This document shows positions 12,061 through 31,254 of a DNA stretch of 64,000 nt, in pieces (within the stretch, counting starts at the first letter, position 1; every line of letters begins with the position of its first letter). The notes beneath the pieces were generated by a model, which did no database searches, had not been told where the DNA came from, and was given only the letters and a program-made list of their open reading frames with translations. The position numbers and the translations under genes were made by a program. This DNA is from Algoriphagus sp. Y33 (GTDB lineage Bacteria > Bacteroidota > Bacteroidia > Cytophagales > Cyclobacteriaceae): positions 5,632,001-5,696,000 of the forward strand of contig NZ_CP061947.1 in assembly GCF_014838715.1 (NCBI RefSeq), read 5' to 3'.

Positions 12061-12628
12061 TTTCGATTCCTTCAGCCACATGCTGGCAGATTTGCTAAGG
12101 CAGACAGGCGAGGAATTACTTGTGCTCCGCAATGATGTGTCTTTGAAAGAAATCAAGAAGCTGGTGTTTGATGGGCTGATTTTGTCTCCGGGACCGGGAG
12201 TACCGTCTCAGGCAGGGAATTTGACGGAAATCTTATCCTACTATCATGACAAGATTCCTGTGCTGGGCGTTTGCCTTGGCCATCAGGCGATAGGTGAATT
12301 TTTTGGGGCAAAATTGAAAAAGAATACTGTTCCTACGCATGGGAAAGTCCATCAAATCCGAAAGGTGAATTCACATATCACAACGTCATTATTGCCTGAA
12401 CACTTTTATGTAACCCGATACCATTCGTTACAACTATATAATTTACCAAAGGAGCTGGAAGTGATTTTGGAAACTGAGTCCGGGGAAATCATGGGAATTG
12501 TGCACTGTGACTTGCCGATTCTGGGGATTCAGTATCACCCGGAAGCCTACTTGACGGAGTACGGATTGGATCTGATGAAGGGGTGGGTGGAAAGCATAAA
12601 AGTCGGCAGTCCGAAGGTGATTCTCTGA
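12041..12628 (+). CDS. Class I glutamine amidotransferase, TrpG/PabA type
   Basis: The 195-residue protein has the full amidotransferase triad context: L-S-P-G-P-G-V-P near residue 48, the nucleophilic Cys in G-V-C-L-G-H-Q near 77 and the His/Glu pair in Y-H-P-E-A-Y near 168. TrpG and PabA deliver ammonia to chorismate for anthranilate or 4-amino-4-deoxychorismate. No chorismate-binding partner (TrpE or PabB) is nearby, so the choice between tryptophan and folate synthesis is open. The start overlaps cvpA by 20 bp. Confidence 0.9.
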   Translation: MLLLLDNFDSFSHMLADLLRQTGEELLVLRNDVSLKEIKKLVFDGLILSPGPGVPSQAGNLTEILSYYHDKIPVLGVCLGHQAIGEFFGAKLKKNTVPTHGKVHQIRKVNSHITTSLLPEHFYVTRYHSLQLYNLPKELEVILETESGEIMGIVHCDLPILGIQYHPEAYLTEYGLDLMKGWVESIKVGSPKVIL

Positions 12629-12647
12629 TAGCTGTCTGGTTAGAGCT

Positions 12648-12729
12648 GGATAATTTCCCTAGTGTACTAGTAAAAATATCGGATAATTTCCCTAGTGTAC
12701 TAGTAAAAATATCGGATAATTTTACTAGT
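12648..12729 (+). promoter_or_regulatory. 33-bp tandem repeat with dyads, probable autoregulatory operator array of the ATPase gene
   Basis: Two identical 33-bp units lie at 12648-12680 and 12681-12713, followed by a partial third copy starting at 12714. Each full unit carries the dyad CTAGTGTACTAG (12659-12670 and 12692-12703), and the third has an in-register half site CTAGT at 12725. The last full dyad and the third half site also form a perfect 10-bp inverted repeat (ACTAGTAAAA at 12699-12708, TTTTACTAGT at 12720-12729). The array ends 24 bp before the ATPase ATG. The repeats are also open in frame with the gene (peptide unit DNFPSVLVKIS). Confidence 0.65.
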
Positions 12730-12753
12730 TTGGATTCAAATGGCTATTTTCTT

Positions 12754-13965
12754 ATGCGTCGAAAGCTTTTCAATGACCTATATCAACATCTCCCCAAAAA
12801 AGAGTTTACGATTCTTACAGGGGCGAGACAAACCGGTAAATCCACTTTATTGCGGGACTTAGAAAATGAGTGTAAAAAAGATAAGCTTCCCACCGTTTTC
12901 ATCAACTTGGAAAATAAAGAACTTTTAAGTCTCCTAGATGCTAACCCTCTGAATGTTTTATCATTCATTTCTTCTCAAAATCAACGCACAATCGTATTTA
13001 TTGATGAAATTCAATATTTGAGCGATCCTTCTAATTTTTTGAAGCATTTATTTGATGATCACGTTAGCCGCATCAAAATCGTAGCAAGTGGGAGTAGCGC
13101 GTTTTATCTGGATGATAAATTTAGAGACTCCTTAGCTGGGAGAAAGAGGATTTTTCAATTAAGAACTTGCGATTTCGAGGACTTTTTGACAATTCAGGAT
13201 AAGGTAGAGCTGTGGAATGAAGTACTGAATATTCGAAAATTATCAGGATATAAAAGCCTAATGATTGATCGGCTTAAAGTGGAATGGGAAAGGTTCATGA
13301 TCTATGGAGGTTATCCTTCAGTAGTAACTGAGCCTGACATCAAGGAGAAAAAAGAAATCCTAAGCGAAATACGTAACTCATTTATTAAACGGGATATTTT
13401 GGAAGCAGGAGTTCGTAACGAACTTGTTTTTCATCAATTATTCAAAATACTTGCAGGGCAGACTGGGCAGCTGGTTAATTTTAATGAATTAAGTAATACA
13501 CTTCGGGTGAGGAGTGAAACCATTCATAATTACTTGAGAGTAATGCAAGTGTGTTTTCATGTTGCATTGGTACGACCATTTTATTCGAATCTAAGAAAGG
13601 AACTGGTCAAAATGCCTAAAGTTTACTTTTTGGACAATGGTTTAAGAAACAGTCTAATCAATAACTTCCAGGATATTCCATCTAGAAGTGACCGTGGTGA
13701 ACTGTGGGAACAGACATTATTCAGGATCCTAGCGGATCAGCATGACCTTGATCATATTCGTTTTTGGCGAACAGCGGATGGAAAGGAAGTGGATTTTGTA
13801 TTACCCGATGCAGAAAACCCATTGGCCATTGAAGCAAAAGTGGATAAAAACTTAATCAAAGAGTCAAAATATCGAGTGTTTCAAGAAGCGTACCCGGCTA
13901 TCGAATTCAATTTTGGATATCTATACCCTTGGTCAGAAGATTTCTTTCGCAGAAATTTATTTTAA
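12754..13965 (+). CDS. AAA+ ATPase with DUF4143 C-terminal domain (copy 1)
   Basis: The ATG at 12754 gives 403 residues beginning M-R-R-K-L-F, the usual start of the family; the open frame extends upstream through the repeats but has no good start there. Walker A is G-A-R-Q-T-G-K-S-T (near residue 26) and Walker B is I-V-F-I-D-E-I-Q-Y. A sensor-like A-S-G-S-S-A segment follows, then a winged-helix region and the DUF4143 domain with K-V-Y-F-L-D-N-G-L-R-N and a terminal E-V-D...I-E-A-K motif resembling a PD-(D/E)XK core. These solitary ATPases are frequent in Bacteroidota and have no established function. The gene lies next to an unusual operator array. Confidence 0.88.
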   Translation: MRRKLFNDLYQHLPKKEFTILTGARQTGKSTLLRDLENECKKDKLPTVFINLENKELLSLLDANPLNVLSFISSQNQRTIVFIDEIQYLSDPSNFLKHLFDDHVSRIKIVASGSSAFYLDDKFRDSLAGRKRIFQLRTCDFEDFLTIQDKVELWNEVLNIRKLSGYKSLMIDRLKVEWERFMIYGGYPSVVTEPDIKEKKEILSEIRNSFIKRDILEAGVRNELVFHQLFKILAGQTGQLVNFNELSNTLRVRSETIHNYLRVMQVCFHVALVRPFYSNLRKELVKMPKVYFLDNGLRNSLINNFQDIPSRSDRGELWEQTLFRILADQHDLDHIRFWRTADGKEVDFVLPDAENPLAIEAKVDKNLIKESKYRVFQEAYPAIEFNFGYLYPWSEDFFRRNLF

Positions 13966-19362: not shown

Positions 19363-19437
19363 GGAACTTTGTCAGAATCCTGAAAAATCTCTTCAAGAAG
19401 CTGACTTCAATATGAGATCCTTATTTTGGTAAGTTTG

Positions 19438-19483
19438 GTGATCGTAATCACTAAAAATACGTATATTTGGTGATTACGATCAC
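19438..19483 (+). promoter_or_regulatory. Promoter flanked by two mirror-image operators before ATPase copy 2
   Basis: GTGATCGTAATCAC at 19438-19451 and its exact reverse complement GTGATTACGATCAC at 19470-19483 lie with centres 32 bp apart. Each is itself a partial dyad (GTGAT-N4-ATCAC). Between them is TATATTTG at 19462-19469, a perfect -7 box. The first site covers the expected -33 region and the second covers the transcription start and ends 5 bp before the ATG at 19489. This is the layout of a self-repressed promoter. Confidence 0.7.
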
Positions 19484-19488
19484 TGAAT

Positions 19489-20637
19489 ATGCATGTATCT
19501 CGTACTTTATTTAACACGCTTCAAGCAAAAATAGACTTCAATAAGTCTATTTTGCTACTTGGGCCAAGACAAGTAGGGAAAACTACTCTTGTAAAAAAAT
19601 TGGCTGAAAATATCTCGTCAAACTTCCTCTATCTCAATGGGGATGAAGGCAGAGTTCAAAATTCCCTAACTGAACCTAGTATTTCTTTTCTCAGGTCTTA
19701 TTTAGGACAAAGCAAAGTCGTAGTGCTGGATGAAGCACAACGTATTCCCACCATAGGTCTTACCTTAAAGTTGATCGTTGATAACTTTACGGATTTACAA
19801 TTGATTGTAACAGGATCATCTGCCTTGGAACTTTCCAGCACAATTAATGAGCCGCTTACGGGAAGAAAATGGGAGTATAAAATGTACCCATTAAGCTGGA
19901 TGGAAATTAGTCGTTCTTTAGGGATGCCTGAAGCGTTAAGCAGTTTGGAGACTTATTTGGTTTATGGAACTTATCCAGAGGTTGTGACCCAAAAAGGCAA
20001 TGAAATTCCAGTGTTGACCAACCTAGCAACAAGTTATTTGTATAAGGATTTACTGAATTTCCAAGGGATCAGAAAACCTGAACTTTTAAATAAAATATTA
20101 CAAGCATTGGCTTGGCAAGTAGGCTCTGAAGTAAGCTATAATGAATTAAGTAGGACTGTCCAAGCGGATAAAGTGACTGTGTCAAATTATATTGATCTAT
20201 TGGAAAAAGCATTTATAATTGAAAAGCTTAATCCATTTTCAAGGAATCTTCGATCCGAAATCAGTTCCAGTAGGAAGATATATTTCCTTGATAATGGTAT
20301 TAGAAATGCAATCATCGGTAATTATGCTCCAATTCCAGCGAGAAATGATATTGGAGCATTGTGGGAAAATTATCTAATCTCGGAGCGGCGAAAGATGCTA
20401 GCCTATCATGGCTTCTATGGACAAACGTATTTTTGGCGCACAGTTCGGGGTCAAGAAATCAATTACCTCGAGGAAATTGACGGGAAACTTTACCCATTTG
20501 AATTTAAGTGGAACCCAAACGCAAAGCTTAAAATCCCCAAAACATTTCAAGAGACTTATACTTCTGAAAAACCAAGGGTGATACATCGTGATAATTTTTG
20601 GGAATGGCTTACTGTATATCCTTATAAAAAAGCCTGA
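19489..20637 (+). CDS. AAA+ ATPase with DUF4143 C-terminal domain (copy 2)
   Basis: The 382-residue protein has the same architecture as the gene at 12754 but is clearly diverged. Walker A is G-P-R-Q-V-G-K-T-T near residue 26 and Walker B is V-V-V-L-D-E-A-Q-R near 80; V-T-G-S-S-A-L-E-L follows. The DUF4143 part shows I-Y-F-L-D-N-G-I-R-N and ends with E-I-N-Y...F-E-F-K-W, where the Asp expected in a PD-(D/E)XK core is Asn. No partner gene is adjacent. The promoter region carries two mirror-image operators. Function of the family is not established. Confidence 0.88.
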   Translation: MHVSRTLFNTLQAKIDFNKSILLLGPRQVGKTTLVKKLAENISSNFLYLNGDEGRVQNSLTEPSISFLRSYLGQSKVVVLDEAQRIPTIGLTLKLIVDNFTDLQLIVTGSSALELSSTINEPLTGRKWEYKMYPLSWMEISRSLGMPEALSSLETYLVYGTYPEVVTQKGNEIPVLTNLATSYLYKDLLNFQGIRKPELLNKILQALAWQVGSEVSYNELSRTVQADKVTVSNYIDLLEKAFIIEKLNPFSRNLRSEISSSRKIYFLDNGIRNAIIGNYAPIPARNDIGALWENYLISERRKMLAYHGFYGQTYFWRTVRGQEINYLEEIDGKLYPFEFKWNPNAKLKIPKTFQETYTSEKPRVIHRDNFWEWLTVYPYKKA

Positions 20638-20661
20638 AATCTCTACAGATCTCAGGCTTTT
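20627..20661 (+). terminator. Terminator overlapping the end of ATPase copy 2
   Basis: AAAAGCCTGA (20627-20636) pairs with TCAGGCTTTT (20652-20661), a 10-bp stem whose A and T flanks allow termination in both directions. It includes the stop codon of the ATPase gene. Confidence 0.75.
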
Positions 20662-25724: not shown

Positions 25725-26561
25725 ATGTCAAAAAAGAAAATAATAGAAGTACAAGGCAATGCCATTACCATACTGAATGAGCTTGGGGGAGACTACATTT
25801 CCCTAACGGATATGCTAAAATCGAAGGATGGAGATTTCTTTATTTCAGATTGGTTAAGAAATAGAAACACCGTTGAGTTTTTGGGTATATGGGAATCTGT
25901 TTATAATCCGGATTTTAATTATGGCGAATTCGCCATAATTAAAAGTCAAGCAGGATTAAATAGTTATAAGTTGAGCGTAAAGGAGGGGGTTTCTAAAACA
26001 AATGCTATAGGATTGCAAGCAAAAGCAGGACGATATGGAGGCACTTATGCGCATTCGGATATCGCTTTTGAATTTGGTATGTGGATTAGTGCGGAGTTTA
26101 AAATCTATTTGATCAAAGAGTTCAAAAGGCTAAAAGAAGAGGAGAGTAATTGATTAAATCTTGAATGGAATCTTCAAAGAACTCTTTCGAAGATTAATTA
26201 TAGGATCCATACAGACGCGATCAAGCAGAATATTGTACCGAAACTCATTTCTAGTTCCCAGATCAATTTCACCTATGCCAATGAAGCAGATTTGCTGAAT
26301 GTGGCTCTTTTTGGAAAAACTGCAAAGCAATGGAAAGAGGAAGCCTCGAAAAACTCAGTTACAGAAAAGAAAGGCAACATGAGGGATGAAGCATCTATTG
26401 AGCAATTAGTCGTTTTGAGCAATATGGAAAGCATCAATGCTTTGTTAATAGAGCAAGGTCTGCCCCAAAAAGACAGGTTAGTCCAATTGAATCAAGTAGC
26501 CATTATGCAGATGAAGTCACTTTTGGCTAATGGAGCTCTAAGAAAACTGGGCGATGGATGA
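25725..26561 (+). pseudogene. KilA-N domain protein interrupted by one in-frame TGA
   Basis: The first 142 codons encode a KilA-N DNA-binding domain (D-Y-I-S-L-T-D-M-L, then W-L-R-N-R-N-T-V-E-F-L-G, ending E-F-K-R-L-K-E-E-E). A TGA at 26151-26153 stops translation. The same frame continues without a break to 26561 and encodes the normal rest of this protein family (N-Y-R-I-H-T-D-A-I-K, then Y-A-N-E-A-D-L-L-N-V-A-L-F-G-K-T-A and L-I-E-Q-G-L-P-Q-K-D-R-L). Only one codon separates it from a 278-residue intact gene. KilA-N proteins are common in phages and mobile DNA. It could be a recent nonsense mutation or a sequencing error. Confidence 0.85.
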
Positions 26562-28269: not shown

Positions 28270-31254
28270 ATGGAAACCCAAATCCTTGATTTTACAGAAA
28301 AAAATGGACTTGTTCTGTGCAGCAAAGTTTCTGCTGCTCAAAACAGCTATGAACGTCTGTATATTACAGAGGTAATTAAACTTGGAGCTTATGCAGTCTT
28401 TTTCAGGAGATTTTTTAAGTGGGAGGACGATACAAAAGCTTATAAGTCCGAACCTGTAGTTTGTATTTTCAAGGAAGAGCATCTTCCTATCAATAGTTCA
28501 AAACACAAAGAGATTCACGCAGCACTCTGGAGTGAAGGGAAGATTGATGTTTATATTATAACAGGGAAGACGAGATTAGATATTTACAATGTTAGAAAGC
28601 CTGCCGAAAAAGTTGGGGATAATGAGCTTTCAGTAGAAAAGTTGAAATTTCCACTAGAAGCCGTTCAAGTACTTGATAAGGAGCGTAACGCAGCACATTT
28701 ATTTGGGACTGGCACATTTTGGGAACAAGATAGGAATCAAAACCAAATAAATATCGATAAGAGTCCATATAAACATTTGATTGATTATCTGATGAAAGTC
28801 AGAAGGGATTTCAATGAAAGAGGCGGACAACTGGAATCCGAAACCATTGACAAAATATTGGTTCTAAGCATCTTAGTAAAGTTTTTGGAAGAGAAAAAGG
28901 ATTCAGGAACTGATCGATCAACTCTTGATGAGATATTTTTTAAATATCAAATACACAGCTTTGTTGAAGCGGTAGAAAAGGGAAAGTTTTTGACTGTTCT
29001 TGATGAACTTTCCACTGAATTCAACGGGAGAATCTTTGATCAATTTTGGCCTCAGGAAAGGGAAAAGATTGAAAATACTGATTTGAGCTTATTAGCACAG
29101 TTTCTAAGAGCAGACAATGATATTGACACGAAGCAACTTTTTTTGTGGAACCAATATAGTTTTCAACATCTTCCTGCTGAGGTGATTAGTGCTATTTATG
29201 AAAATTTCATTCAGGAAGAAGCCCAAAGAGATGGAAATGGCCGTGAGAAAGGTGTGGTTTACACTCCTATTCATTTGGTTAATTTCATGGTGGATGAAGC
29301 CATGCCTTTAGAAAATCCTCCCTCATCTTTTATTGAAAGCGGTATTTACAAAATCCTCGATCCTACCTGTGGATCTGGCGTTTTTCTTGTTGCTGCCTAC
29401 AAAAGACTGCTTCAATGGTGGGCGATCTCTGAGAGCGAAAAAACCGGAGAAATTCGATACCCGGATGCACGGACAGCACAGAGAATAATGGAGGAAAATA
29501 TTTTCGGTGTGGATGTAAAAAGAACTGCTGTGCGTGTGACCATCTTTGGTCTGACCACTGCCTTATTGGATTATCTTACCCCTAAGGAAGTCTGGGGAGA
29601 GTTAAAATTTCAAGATCTTAGTACAAAAAATATAGTTGAAGCTTTACCACCTACGGGTTTTTTTCAATGGGCTTTAAATGCTAAAAATGAGAACCAGCAT
29701 TTTTCGCTGGTTATTGGTAATCCTCCATTTAATCCTGAGAAAGATAGTTCTAAGCAAAAGGTGTTAGACAAAGATGTTCTTAATTCTTTGGACTTGAAGC
29801 ATCCAACTATCCCGAGAAAGAACTTTGCGCTACATTTCTTTGAGGCTTCCATGTTGCTGACTGATCAAATTTGTATGATCATTCCGTCCAATGTGCTTTT
29901 ATACGATAAATCTAAGGAGGCTAAAGATTATAGGGAGAGTCTTTTTACAGATTATGCGGTCTCAGATATTTATGATTTTACTCATTTAAGAGAATCCCTT
30001 TTTGTGAAAAAGGGAGGAGGAAAGAAGACAGGAAGAACACCTGTAGTTGCTCTCTTTGCTGAGAGCAGACCCTCTGAATTCAAACCAATAAACCATACGG
30101 TAGTAAAACGCACTATTTCTGTAGAACAGAAAGTTCGTTTTGAAATTGATGACTACGACCGACATCCTGTAAAATGGGATTGGGCTGTTGATCCTGATAA
30201 GCAGTTTGTGTGGAAGACAAATCTTCTGGGAGGGGGAAGGTTGTTTCATTTGATTTATAGGCTGAGCTTACTACCCTCATTGAAAGACTTAATTGATTCA
30301 AATCGATGGCTTAATTTGAGAGGATTTGAAGGAGGAAAGGGATATGAAATAATAAACTGCGATCAGATTTTAAGTATTGCAAATGATCATGTCCCTTATG
30401 TATCATTGGATACAAGAATTGAAACAGGCAATTTAAAAGACATAAAGCTATATCGCCCCCCTTTTCTTGTTTTTGAGCAGAGATTAGGGACTGATGGTCT
30501 AGTATATGCTTTAGTTTTAAAGAAAAGTGGCTACACTCAAAAGGAACAATTATATTATAGTCGCGATTTTGTCGGGATAAGCGTGCCTCTTGAAGATGAA
30601 CGAGAGCTTGAAACGGTTTACTTATCGTTATCAAACACAAATTTCAATCCCCAATTTTTTGTTATTTCCACAAGTAGCAACTGTTTAGTCCATCATGAGA
30701 CGGCAATAAGGATAAGCGATATACTTTCACTCCCAATTTCCTTTGGAAAATTGAATGAAAAATTAAATCGATCAGAGAAAGTGATTCAGGATGACGTACT
30801 TTTTTATTATAGACATCTAGGCAAGCAAATCACTAAAAAATCTGGCGGTGCAATCCTCCATTATCCTGTAAAACCAAAGCAATTTGAAGACTATGGCGAA
30901 GTACTCTGCTCAGAGTTAAATGGTATCTATGCCAAGAGCGGTAATAGCTGGCAATCAGGCAAGATTTATAGCATGCCTTCCTATACAGTTTATCAAATTG
31001 GATTTGGAGCTGATGGAGAGTTGAAGCAAGAATTTGTGAAAGATCAATTAGATGATTCGGTTCAGAGACTAATCAATAATGACACTGCCAACCGAGGGGC
31101 TGCCTATAAAAGAATCGTTCGCTTATATGATCATGTAGATGGATTTGATTGTGTTTACTTTATCAAGCCCAATGCCCTGCGCTATTGGCTAAAGTCAATA
31201 GCCTTGAGAGATGCCGACGAAACATTTTTGGATTTTAAAGGCAAGGGATATTAA
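28270..31254 (+). CDS. N6-adenine DNA methyltransferase of a restriction-modification module
   Basis: The 994-residue protein has an N-terminal region of about 330 residues (including a helical segment rich in charged residues), a class-gamma N6 methyltransferase domain and a C-terminal target-recognition-like region. SAM motif I is L-D-P-T-C-G-S-G-V-F-L near residue 363 and catalytic motif IV is N-P-P-F near 484. The layout resembles Eco57I/type IIG methylases and PglX-like enzymes, but I see no clear nuclease motif in the N-terminal part. The next gene, 2 bp away, encodes a small protein with a PD-(D/E)XK signature. Local base composition is AT-richer than the neighbouring core genes, which fits horizontal acquisition. 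Confidence 0.88.
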   Translation: METQILDFTEKNGLVLCSKVSAAQNSYERLYITEVIKLGAYAVFFRRFFKWEDDTKAYKSEPVVCIFKEEHLPINSSKHKEIHAALWSEGKIDVYIITGKTRLDIYNVRKPAEKVGDNELSVEKLKFPLEAVQVLDKERNAAHLFGTGTFWEQDRNQNQINIDKSPYKHLIDYLMKVRRDFNERGGQLESETIDKILVLSILVKFLEEKKDSGTDRSTLDEIFFKYQIHSFVEAVEKGKFLTVLDELSTEFNGRIFDQFWPQEREKIENTDLSLLAQFLRADNDIDTKQLFLWNQYSFQHLPAEVISAIYENFIQEEAQRDGNGREKGVVYTPIHLVNFMVDEAMPLENPPSSFIESGIYKILDPTCGSGVFLVAAYKRLLQWWAISESEKTGEIRYPDARTAQRIMEENIFGVDVKRTAVRVTIFGLTTALLDYLTPKEVWGELKFQDLSTKNIVEALPPTGFFQWALNAKNENQHFSLVIGNPPFNPEKDSSKQKVLDKDVLNSLDLKHPTIPRKNFALHFFEASMLLTDQICMIIPSNVLLYDKSKEAKDYRESLFTDYAVSDIYDFTHLRESLFVKKGGGKKTGRTPVVALFAESRPSEFKPINHTVVKRTISVEQKVRFEIDDYDRHPVKWDWAVDPDKQFVWKTNLLGGGRLFHLIYRLSLLPSLKDLIDSNRWLNLRGFEGGKGYEIINCDQILSIANDHVPYVSLDTRIETGNLKDIKLYRPPFLVFEQRLGTDGLVYALVLKKSGYTQKEQLYYSRDFVGISVPLEDERELETVYLSLSNTNFNPQFFVISTSSNCLVHHETAIRISDILSLPISFGKLNEKLNRSEKVIQDDVLFYYRHLGKQITKKSGGAILHYPVKPKQFEDYGEVLCSELNGIYAKSGNSWQSGKIYSMPSYTVYQIGFGADGELKQEFVKDQLDDSVQRLINNDTANRGAAYKRIVRLYDHVDGFDCVYFIKPNALRYWLKSIALRDADETFLDFKGKGY

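Follow-up and report, generated by a model that had tools for sequence, protein, structure and literature searches.

Why should the gene of a candidate defence ATPase carry two copies of a DNA site across its own promoter, and which protein would read them? We addressed this question in a 64,000-nucleotide stretch of Algoriphagus sp. Y33 (contig NZ_CP061947.1, positions 5,632,001 to 5,696,000; hereafter the window), where such a pair lies directly before the second of two AAA_14-DUF4143 ATPase genes (Table 1). It is highly probable that both sites serve as operators for this same ATPase gene, bound by the winged helix of its product, which most likely represses its own promoter.

Paired sites at the ATPase promoter

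The 14-bp sequence GTGATCGTAATCAC occupies positions 19438-19451 and its exact reverse complement positions 19470-19483, 32 bp apart from start to start, and a perfect TAnnTTTG box (TATATTTG) lies between them, as a preliminary description of the sequence had reported. We take TAnnTTTG, the consensus also supplied by the preliminary description, to be the Bacteroidota -7 promoter box. The placements of one site over the -33 region and of the other over the transcription start are predicted ones because both were derived from the position of this box. The mirror-image relation of the pair, to which that description had given first place, is exact for the two cores, but the single 14-mer is already close to a palindrome (GTGA-N6-TCAC), the central 4 bp alone (CGTA/TACG) create the mirror image, and the pair is a direct repeat as well (TTTGGTGATnnnnATCACT), in which the 22-bp units listed in Table 1 repeat directly. 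The 32-bp array is the primary feature and the mirror-image relation is secondary.

The 64 kb contain no further exact copy of the 14-mer; up to three mismatches gave eight matches there against 4.0 in shuffled sequence. Across the whole 6.38-Mb genome, five matches with at most one mismatch, two of them the window pair, compare with two for a reversed control pattern, and the extended site pattern with at most two mismatches matched the window pair alone. A scan of 464 kb of the genome for the frame and period of the array found none over threshold besides that of the window, with a threshold that recovers 49% of the training and 44% of the held-out arrays described below and that weaker arrays and single sites would escape. 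The other ATPase gene of the window is preceded by repeat units at 12648-12680 and 12681-12713 and a partial one at 12714-12729; their sequence is unlike that of the window pair and their spacing agrees within 1 bp (33 vs 32 bp), both points as first described.

Table 1. Positions, in the window, of the two ATPase genes and of the sites, codons and hairpin associated with them.
Feature	Position	Strand	Remarks
33-bp-period array of the other ATPase	12648..12729	+	CTAGTGTACTAG cores 12659-12670 and 12692-12703; half site 12724-12729
Other AAA_14-DUF4143 ATPase gene	12754..13965	+	likely start ATG 12754
Putative operator site 1	19434..19455	+	TTTGGTGATCG.TAATCACTAAA; near-palindromic; over the expected -33 region
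Presumed Bacteroidota -7 promoter box (TAnnTTTG)	19462..19469	+	TATATTTG; between the two cores; adjoins the second site
Putative operator site 2	19466..19487	+	TTTGGTGATTA.CGATCACTGAA; 32 bp 3' of site 1; 14-bp core is the exact reverse complement of the site 1 core
AAA_14-winged helix-turn-helix-DUF4143 ATPase gene	19489..20637	+	382 aa; PADLOC PDC-S01
Predicted winged helix, codons 197-266	20077..20286	+	helices 197-209, 217-224, 228-240; strands 244-249, 262-266
Putative specificity residues, codons D227-K228-V229	20167..20175	+	start of recognition helix; match h5=G, h7=G, h6=T (site GTGA)
Codon 325	20461..20463	+	N; D in 173/175 aligned relatives; expected PD-(D/E)XK metal ligand
Terminator-like hairpin	20627..20661	+	at 3' end of the ATPase open reading frame; by eye

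Repeats upstream of DUF4143 ATPase genes

The window pair belongs to a general pattern upstream of DUF4143 ATPase genes. DUF4143 gave 20 matches in this genome, 17 of them above the curated cut-off, and in the 16 genes with a usable start, repeats stood directly before the start codon in nearly all, with sequences that mostly differed from gene to gene, those of L003 and L008 being alike (by eye). We assembled 164 distinct ATPase genes from this genome, 60 genomes of the family (39 with a match) and 395 genomes of the phylum (of which 74 matched at E 1e-30 or better), taking the loci of best matches only and completing the set from 50 named loci and 40 further stretches; four loci (L012, L016, L018 and L019) yielded no usable gene. 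The start codon was mostly 23-27 codons before Walker A. Direct or inverted repeats that beat all 19 dinucleotide shuffles (chance expectation about 10% for the two tests) were present at -110 to -1 in 125 of 163 ATPase genes, compared with 15/153 far-upstream, 30/162 downstream and 10/164 within-gene control windows of the same loci and 22/142 ordinary promoters of this genome. A strong repeat was found in 95 of the 164 genes, and the copies of the strongest direct repeat began exactly 32 bp apart in 71 of these; the far-upstream control windows had a strong repeat in 5 of 155, none of them at 32 bp.

Similar arrays were seen at loci labelled Treponema, Termititenax, Margulisiibacteriota and Saccharibacteria. 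Homologues occurred in 573 of 72,556 plasmid records and a match in 26 of the 50,697 records of a phage collection, and arrays were clear by eye in two of eight plasmid and phage loci, one on a Treponema plasmid and one in a phage record. Scanning viral contigs with the window protein returned nine pattern matches and no relative.

Site architecture and distance to the promoter box

A site model was built by expectation-maximisation over the 134 relatives of the window protein with a bit score above 250, hereafter the clade. Read from the outside towards the dyad, the half site consists of TTT, any base, the triplet h7 h6 h5, A (95%), T or A (mostly T) and any base. The frame varies rather little; the triplet is hypervariable, with GTG, TGG, CGG, AGG, GGG, TAG, GCG, GTC and others among its forms. 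A TAnnTTnG box within 90 bp of the start codon was present in 73 of the 93 clade genes with a site score of at least 13, against 18 of 93 in one mononucleotide shuffle, at a median of 26 bp before the start codon. The box was 17-21 bp 3' of the nearest site centre in 40 of these 73 genes and one period off that phase in 18 more.

Correspondence between the recognition helix and the site

Protein columns were compared with site bases by mutual information (373 of the 382 columns, 60 permutations), leaving out the 41 of 134 clade genes that scored below 13. Columns 227, 229 and 228 ranked first for h5, h6 and h7 respectively. At residue 227, D went with G (78/78) and S with C (11/11) at h5; at residue 229, N went with T (26/26) and K with G (44/45) at h6; and K at residue 228 went with G at h7 (34/34).

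These correspondences were applied to 82 previously unused genes, whose median best identity to the earlier proteins was 58%, with a site caller blind at h5-h8; the caller used in training carried base preferences, and blindness holds for the held-out caller only. Bases were predicted correctly in 62 of 76 genes at h5, 55 of 71 at h6 and 35 of 49 at h7 (no prediction for 6, 11 and 33 genes), where the best of 2000 permutations reached 47, 34 and 35. Among the 56 held-out genes with a site score of at least 12, the counts were 48/51, 43/49 and 27/37 against permuted maxima of 39, 29 and 26. Held-out genes encoding K228 had G at h7 in 31 of 39 cases, those without it in 7 of 43. A rule assigning C at h7 to P228 was rejected, since none of the five held-out genes with P228 obeyed it.

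Disjoint pairs of at least 42% identity were then drawn from 149 genes (93 training and 56 held-out, the 26 held-out genes below 12 being left out). Where the residue differed, the base differed in 30 of 31 pairs for 227/h5, 54 of 63 for 229/h6 and 41 of 56 for 228/h7; where it was the same, the base differed in 4 of 72, 10 of 70 and 23 of 69, a comparison in which the differing pairs were the more distant (mean identity 0.48 for 227 and 0.55 for 229, vs 0.64 and 0.62 for same-residue pairs). When 318 columns were treated alike, 227, 229 and 228 each came first for h5, h6 and h7. The proteins of L117 and L124, 94% identical, have DSK with CGG and DTK with TGG respectively.

The preliminary description had made its proposal that each ATPase recognises its own promoter depend on co-variation of winged helix and site across homologues. 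This co-variation was found, the three columns being top-ranked and residues 227 and 229 predicting unseen genes. These ATPases very probably read their own operators, to judge from the sequence correspondences, and paralogues mostly differ in the triplet, which would make control specific to the single gene for the most part.

The remaining 30 of the 164 genes, which fall outside the clade, were inspected by eye. A second subfamily (L001, L026, L029, L030, L031, L034) combines D-x-K helices with GGAAT..ATTCC-like sites at odd spacing, from which the code may extend past the clade, and one DIN helix goes with GGTTATAACC. Two further groups are outside the clade frame: L002, L027, L028 and L032, with the helix TQP or SQP, have an array of TTATTTCAAA-like sites with a period of about 22 bp, and L003, L008, L036 and L038 have a hairpin (CCTTGCAA...TTGCAAGG-like) that is long, for the most part near-perfect, and reaches exactly to the start codon. 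In the Granulicella plasmid locus L326, too, an inverted repeat ends at the start codon.

Domains and fold of the ATPase

The window protein matched AAA_14 with 108.9 bits and DUF4143 with 132.5 bits (Pfam cut-offs 27 and 28.1). The whole-protein PADLOC profile PDLC04789 (528.8 bits, E 1.8e-159, residues 1-374) assigns it to PDC-S01, a phage-defence candidate with AAA_14 and DUF4143, and PADLOC files both window ATPases there. An AlphaFold2 model based on a 100-row alignment had a pLDDT of 94.6 and a pTM of 0.92. In its predicted winged helix the recognition helix would span residues 228-240, which places residues 227-229 at the N-cap and first turn. Over about residues 1-287, the folds with the highest Z were the archaeal ATPases 2qen (16.7) and 2fna (16.5), followed by STAND ATPases, and Foldseek matches included Cdc6/Orc1 bound to origin DNA (2qby, 2v1u).

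E338 and K340 of the expected D...ExK metal-binding set are present in the window protein, and the set is incomplete at N325. This asparagine is unique to the window protein among the 175 aligned, the Algoriphagus aquimarinus protein having D; non-canonical residues at D325, E338 or K340 were found in 7 of the 175 rows, two of them through gaps. Because N325 replaces a near-invariant D, the window copy may be without nuclease activity, its putative operators being conserved all the same.

The glpF locus in related genomes

A. aquimarinus has the gene (87% protein identity) and the sites at the same place; both 14-bp cores are unchanged in spite of divergence in the intergenic DNA on their upstream side. 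Of the glpF loci retrieved from 14 relatives of the same genus, the eight most similar were inspected, and the ATPase gene is absent there in all eight; four keep operator-like sites (L266, L267, L270 and L273), namely an intact pair in G803, one site in G795 and altered sites in G800 and G802, and four have none. At the loci of G803 and G795, which lack the gene, glpF is followed by a hairpin similar to that at 20627-20661 of the window (by eye). G803 encodes four other ATPases at E 1e-60 or better, with the helices DVK, DKE, DPK and SKN, none of which would be expected to read GTG.

GlpF of A. aquimarinus and of G803 is 91.4% identical to that of the window and GlpF of G795 89.8%; these values are alike and therefore give no proof that the gene was present ancestrally. 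A one-gene glpF tree of nine sequences, rooted by eye on distant members, places G803 outside a group of A. aquimarinus, the window and G795 (support 0.967) and makes G795 and the window sister sequences (0.796). G790 has a homologue of 69% identity with the helix DKA, around which 4.1 kb showed no synteny with the window. The gene may have been lost repeatedly with its operators left in place, or it may have come to an address that was already there.

Control of the ATPase gene and alternative explanations

We propose that the ATPase, in which an AAA+ unit and a winged helix are combined with a PD-(D/E)XK-like domain, occupies each near-palindromic site through its winged helix, probably in dimeric form, with residues 227, 229 and 228 reading h5, h6 and h7. 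Units bound every 32 bp, about three helical turns, would cover the -33/-7 region, and the protein would therefore most likely repress its own promoter. Such repression, the likeliest role of the sites, would keep the level of the ATPase low until a trigger (ATP state, invading DNA or damage) released it, perhaps in the service of defence.

Several observations count against this reading. Activation in place of repression is possible. A clean array is not universal, in view of the 41 clade genes below 13 and the 26 of 82 held-out genes below 12. Apart from K, residue 228 predicts h7 poorly, its 35 of 49 equalling the best permutation. The triplet DKV occurs in two paralogues of this genome, and the data do not bear out selection that would keep the addresses of one genome distinct, 2 of 71 paralogue pairs being identical vs 3.2 expected (P 0.36). 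Finally, pure autoregulation does not explain the sites that stand without the gene in four genomes.

It is rather unlikely that the array is instead an assembly platform or sensor, on which ATPases at 32-bp spacing form an AAA+/STAND-like oligomer awaiting a trigger, with control of transcription as a by-product: of the 73 -7 boxes that could be recognised, 58 keep a single phase relative to the sites, as in an ordinary operator, and 38 of the 93 genes have a single clear site only.

A targeted, homing-like mobile gene, whose protein recognises a pre-existing address at which the gene settles and which then becomes its promoter, is distinctly unlikely. It would fit the intact or altered sites of the four gene-less glpF loci, where sites are wider-spread than the gene, the branching of G803 outside the gene-bearing A. 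aquimarinus and window together with G795, the G790 homologue away from the window's synteny and the homologues on plasmids. However, the empty sites include the -7 box, suggesting a former gene there; gene loss in G803 and G795 gives the same pattern with one more event; and four of the eight gene-less loci inspected have no site. Neither a junction signature nor a target duplication came to light, though no systematic search for them was made. Ends of a mobile element were also considered, and were rejected or demoted. As a tentative and rather doubtful extension, PDC-S01 proteins may be DNA-anchored, STAND-like switches, each tied by the residue-base code to its own 32-bp-spaced promoter array, where the AAA+ unit would assemble, sense a trigger and direct the nuclease domain; the address, to judge from the operators in genomes without the gene, can be a DNA element independent of it and may even be where the gene homes.

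The consensus of Escherichia coli CRP is TGTGA-N6-TCACA, which GGTGA-N6-TCACT of the window resembles in half-site spacing and GTGA core, a resemblance of the window site alone. A separate CRP/FNR-type regulator, with the ATPase gene as one target, perhaps along with the glp operon, is nonetheless very improbable: the triplet varies from gene to gene in step with recognition-helix residues of the ATPase, and the extended site, with at most two mismatches, occurs only at the window pair and not at several promoters of the genome. We hardly consider RNA elements (a 5' untranslated hairpin, an attenuator or a glpF terminator), for although the pair makes a 46-bp inverted repeat that is 91% complementary, the array begins 5' of the -7 box and is followed by no T run, the sites of relatives recur at 32 bp as near-palindromes, and RNA pairing leaves the coupling to recognition-helix residues unexplained.

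Other features of the window

The GTG at 12583, upstream of the other ATPase gene, is probably a false start because its frame translates the array; the mechanical open reading frame from this GTG (window 12583-12754) renders the array as 11-residue repeats (DNFPSVLVKIS). False N-termini of like kind may sit in databases, and annotated starts can err where an array gets translated. Positions 28270-31254, in a stretch of lower GC (0.373), encode an Eco57I-type/N6 DNA methylase of 994 aa that is probably a restriction-modification enzyme. About 2 kb before it, positions 25725-26153 encode a short protein with a KilA-N domain, a domain frequent in phages.

Comparison with known systems

According to the accessible part of one paper (PMC12988326), PDC-S01 is the fourth most common defence across prokaryotes, with 9986 archaeal and 29,494 bacterial systems, and consists of an ATPase domain fused to the PD-(D/E)-X-K superfamily, validation being pending for most such candidates. 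The part consulted of a study of rumen genomes gives PDC-S01 as the most frequent individual locus (PMC13356809), and the excerpt available of a Thermus study reports a 6.6-fold change of the DUF4143 gene TT_P0211 with a plasmid present (PMC4406477). Operators, DNA sequence specificity and a residue code are not mentioned for PDC-S01 in the accessible parts of PMC12988326 and PMC13356809, and the literature searched, which lay outside subscription papers and preprints, offered in its accessible parts no mechanism for PDC-S01. The earlier suggestion of a selfish or immunity-type gene family fits as far as immunity goes, PDC-S01 being a candidate defence family; its selfish part was not borne out. 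The code gives many PDC-S01 members a predictable DNA ligand, through which binding, regulation and triggers can be tested gene by gene.

The archaeal AAA+ ATPases PABY2304 (2qen) and SSO1545 (2fna) and the STAND ATPases (NLRs, CED-4, Apaf-1, AVAST5) gave the highest-Z matches to the window protein over about residues 1-287. They differ in that the winged helix of the window protein would read DNA, and in the PD-(D/E)XK-like domain after it, which those matches hardly cover; a STAND-like ATPase fold would here be joined to sequence-specific DNA reading. Archaeal Orc1/Cdc6 proteins combine AAA+ with a DNA-binding winged helix, as would the window protein, and Orc proteins are not known to have the nuclease domain. 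In S. islandicus, the promoter of Orc1-2 carries a motif that this protein binds and that lies on several promoters, as stated in the accessible part of PMC9738581. On that partial account, its own-promoter binding is the nearest functional parallel we found, and the difference is that Orc1-2 has one motif on several promoters whereas in the window family the address differs from gene to gene.

Phage repressors, toxin-antitoxin operons and the C proteins of restriction-modification systems bind palindromic operators at their own promoters, with specificities that diverge between members. The correspondence described here adds what appears to be a recognition code of natural origin, set in a winged helix and represented by many natural variants. 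Unlike those gene-specific autoregulators, the DUF4143 ATPases would unite an ATPase, operator reading and a nuclease-like domain in one polypeptide, and their residue-base code holds over many genera.
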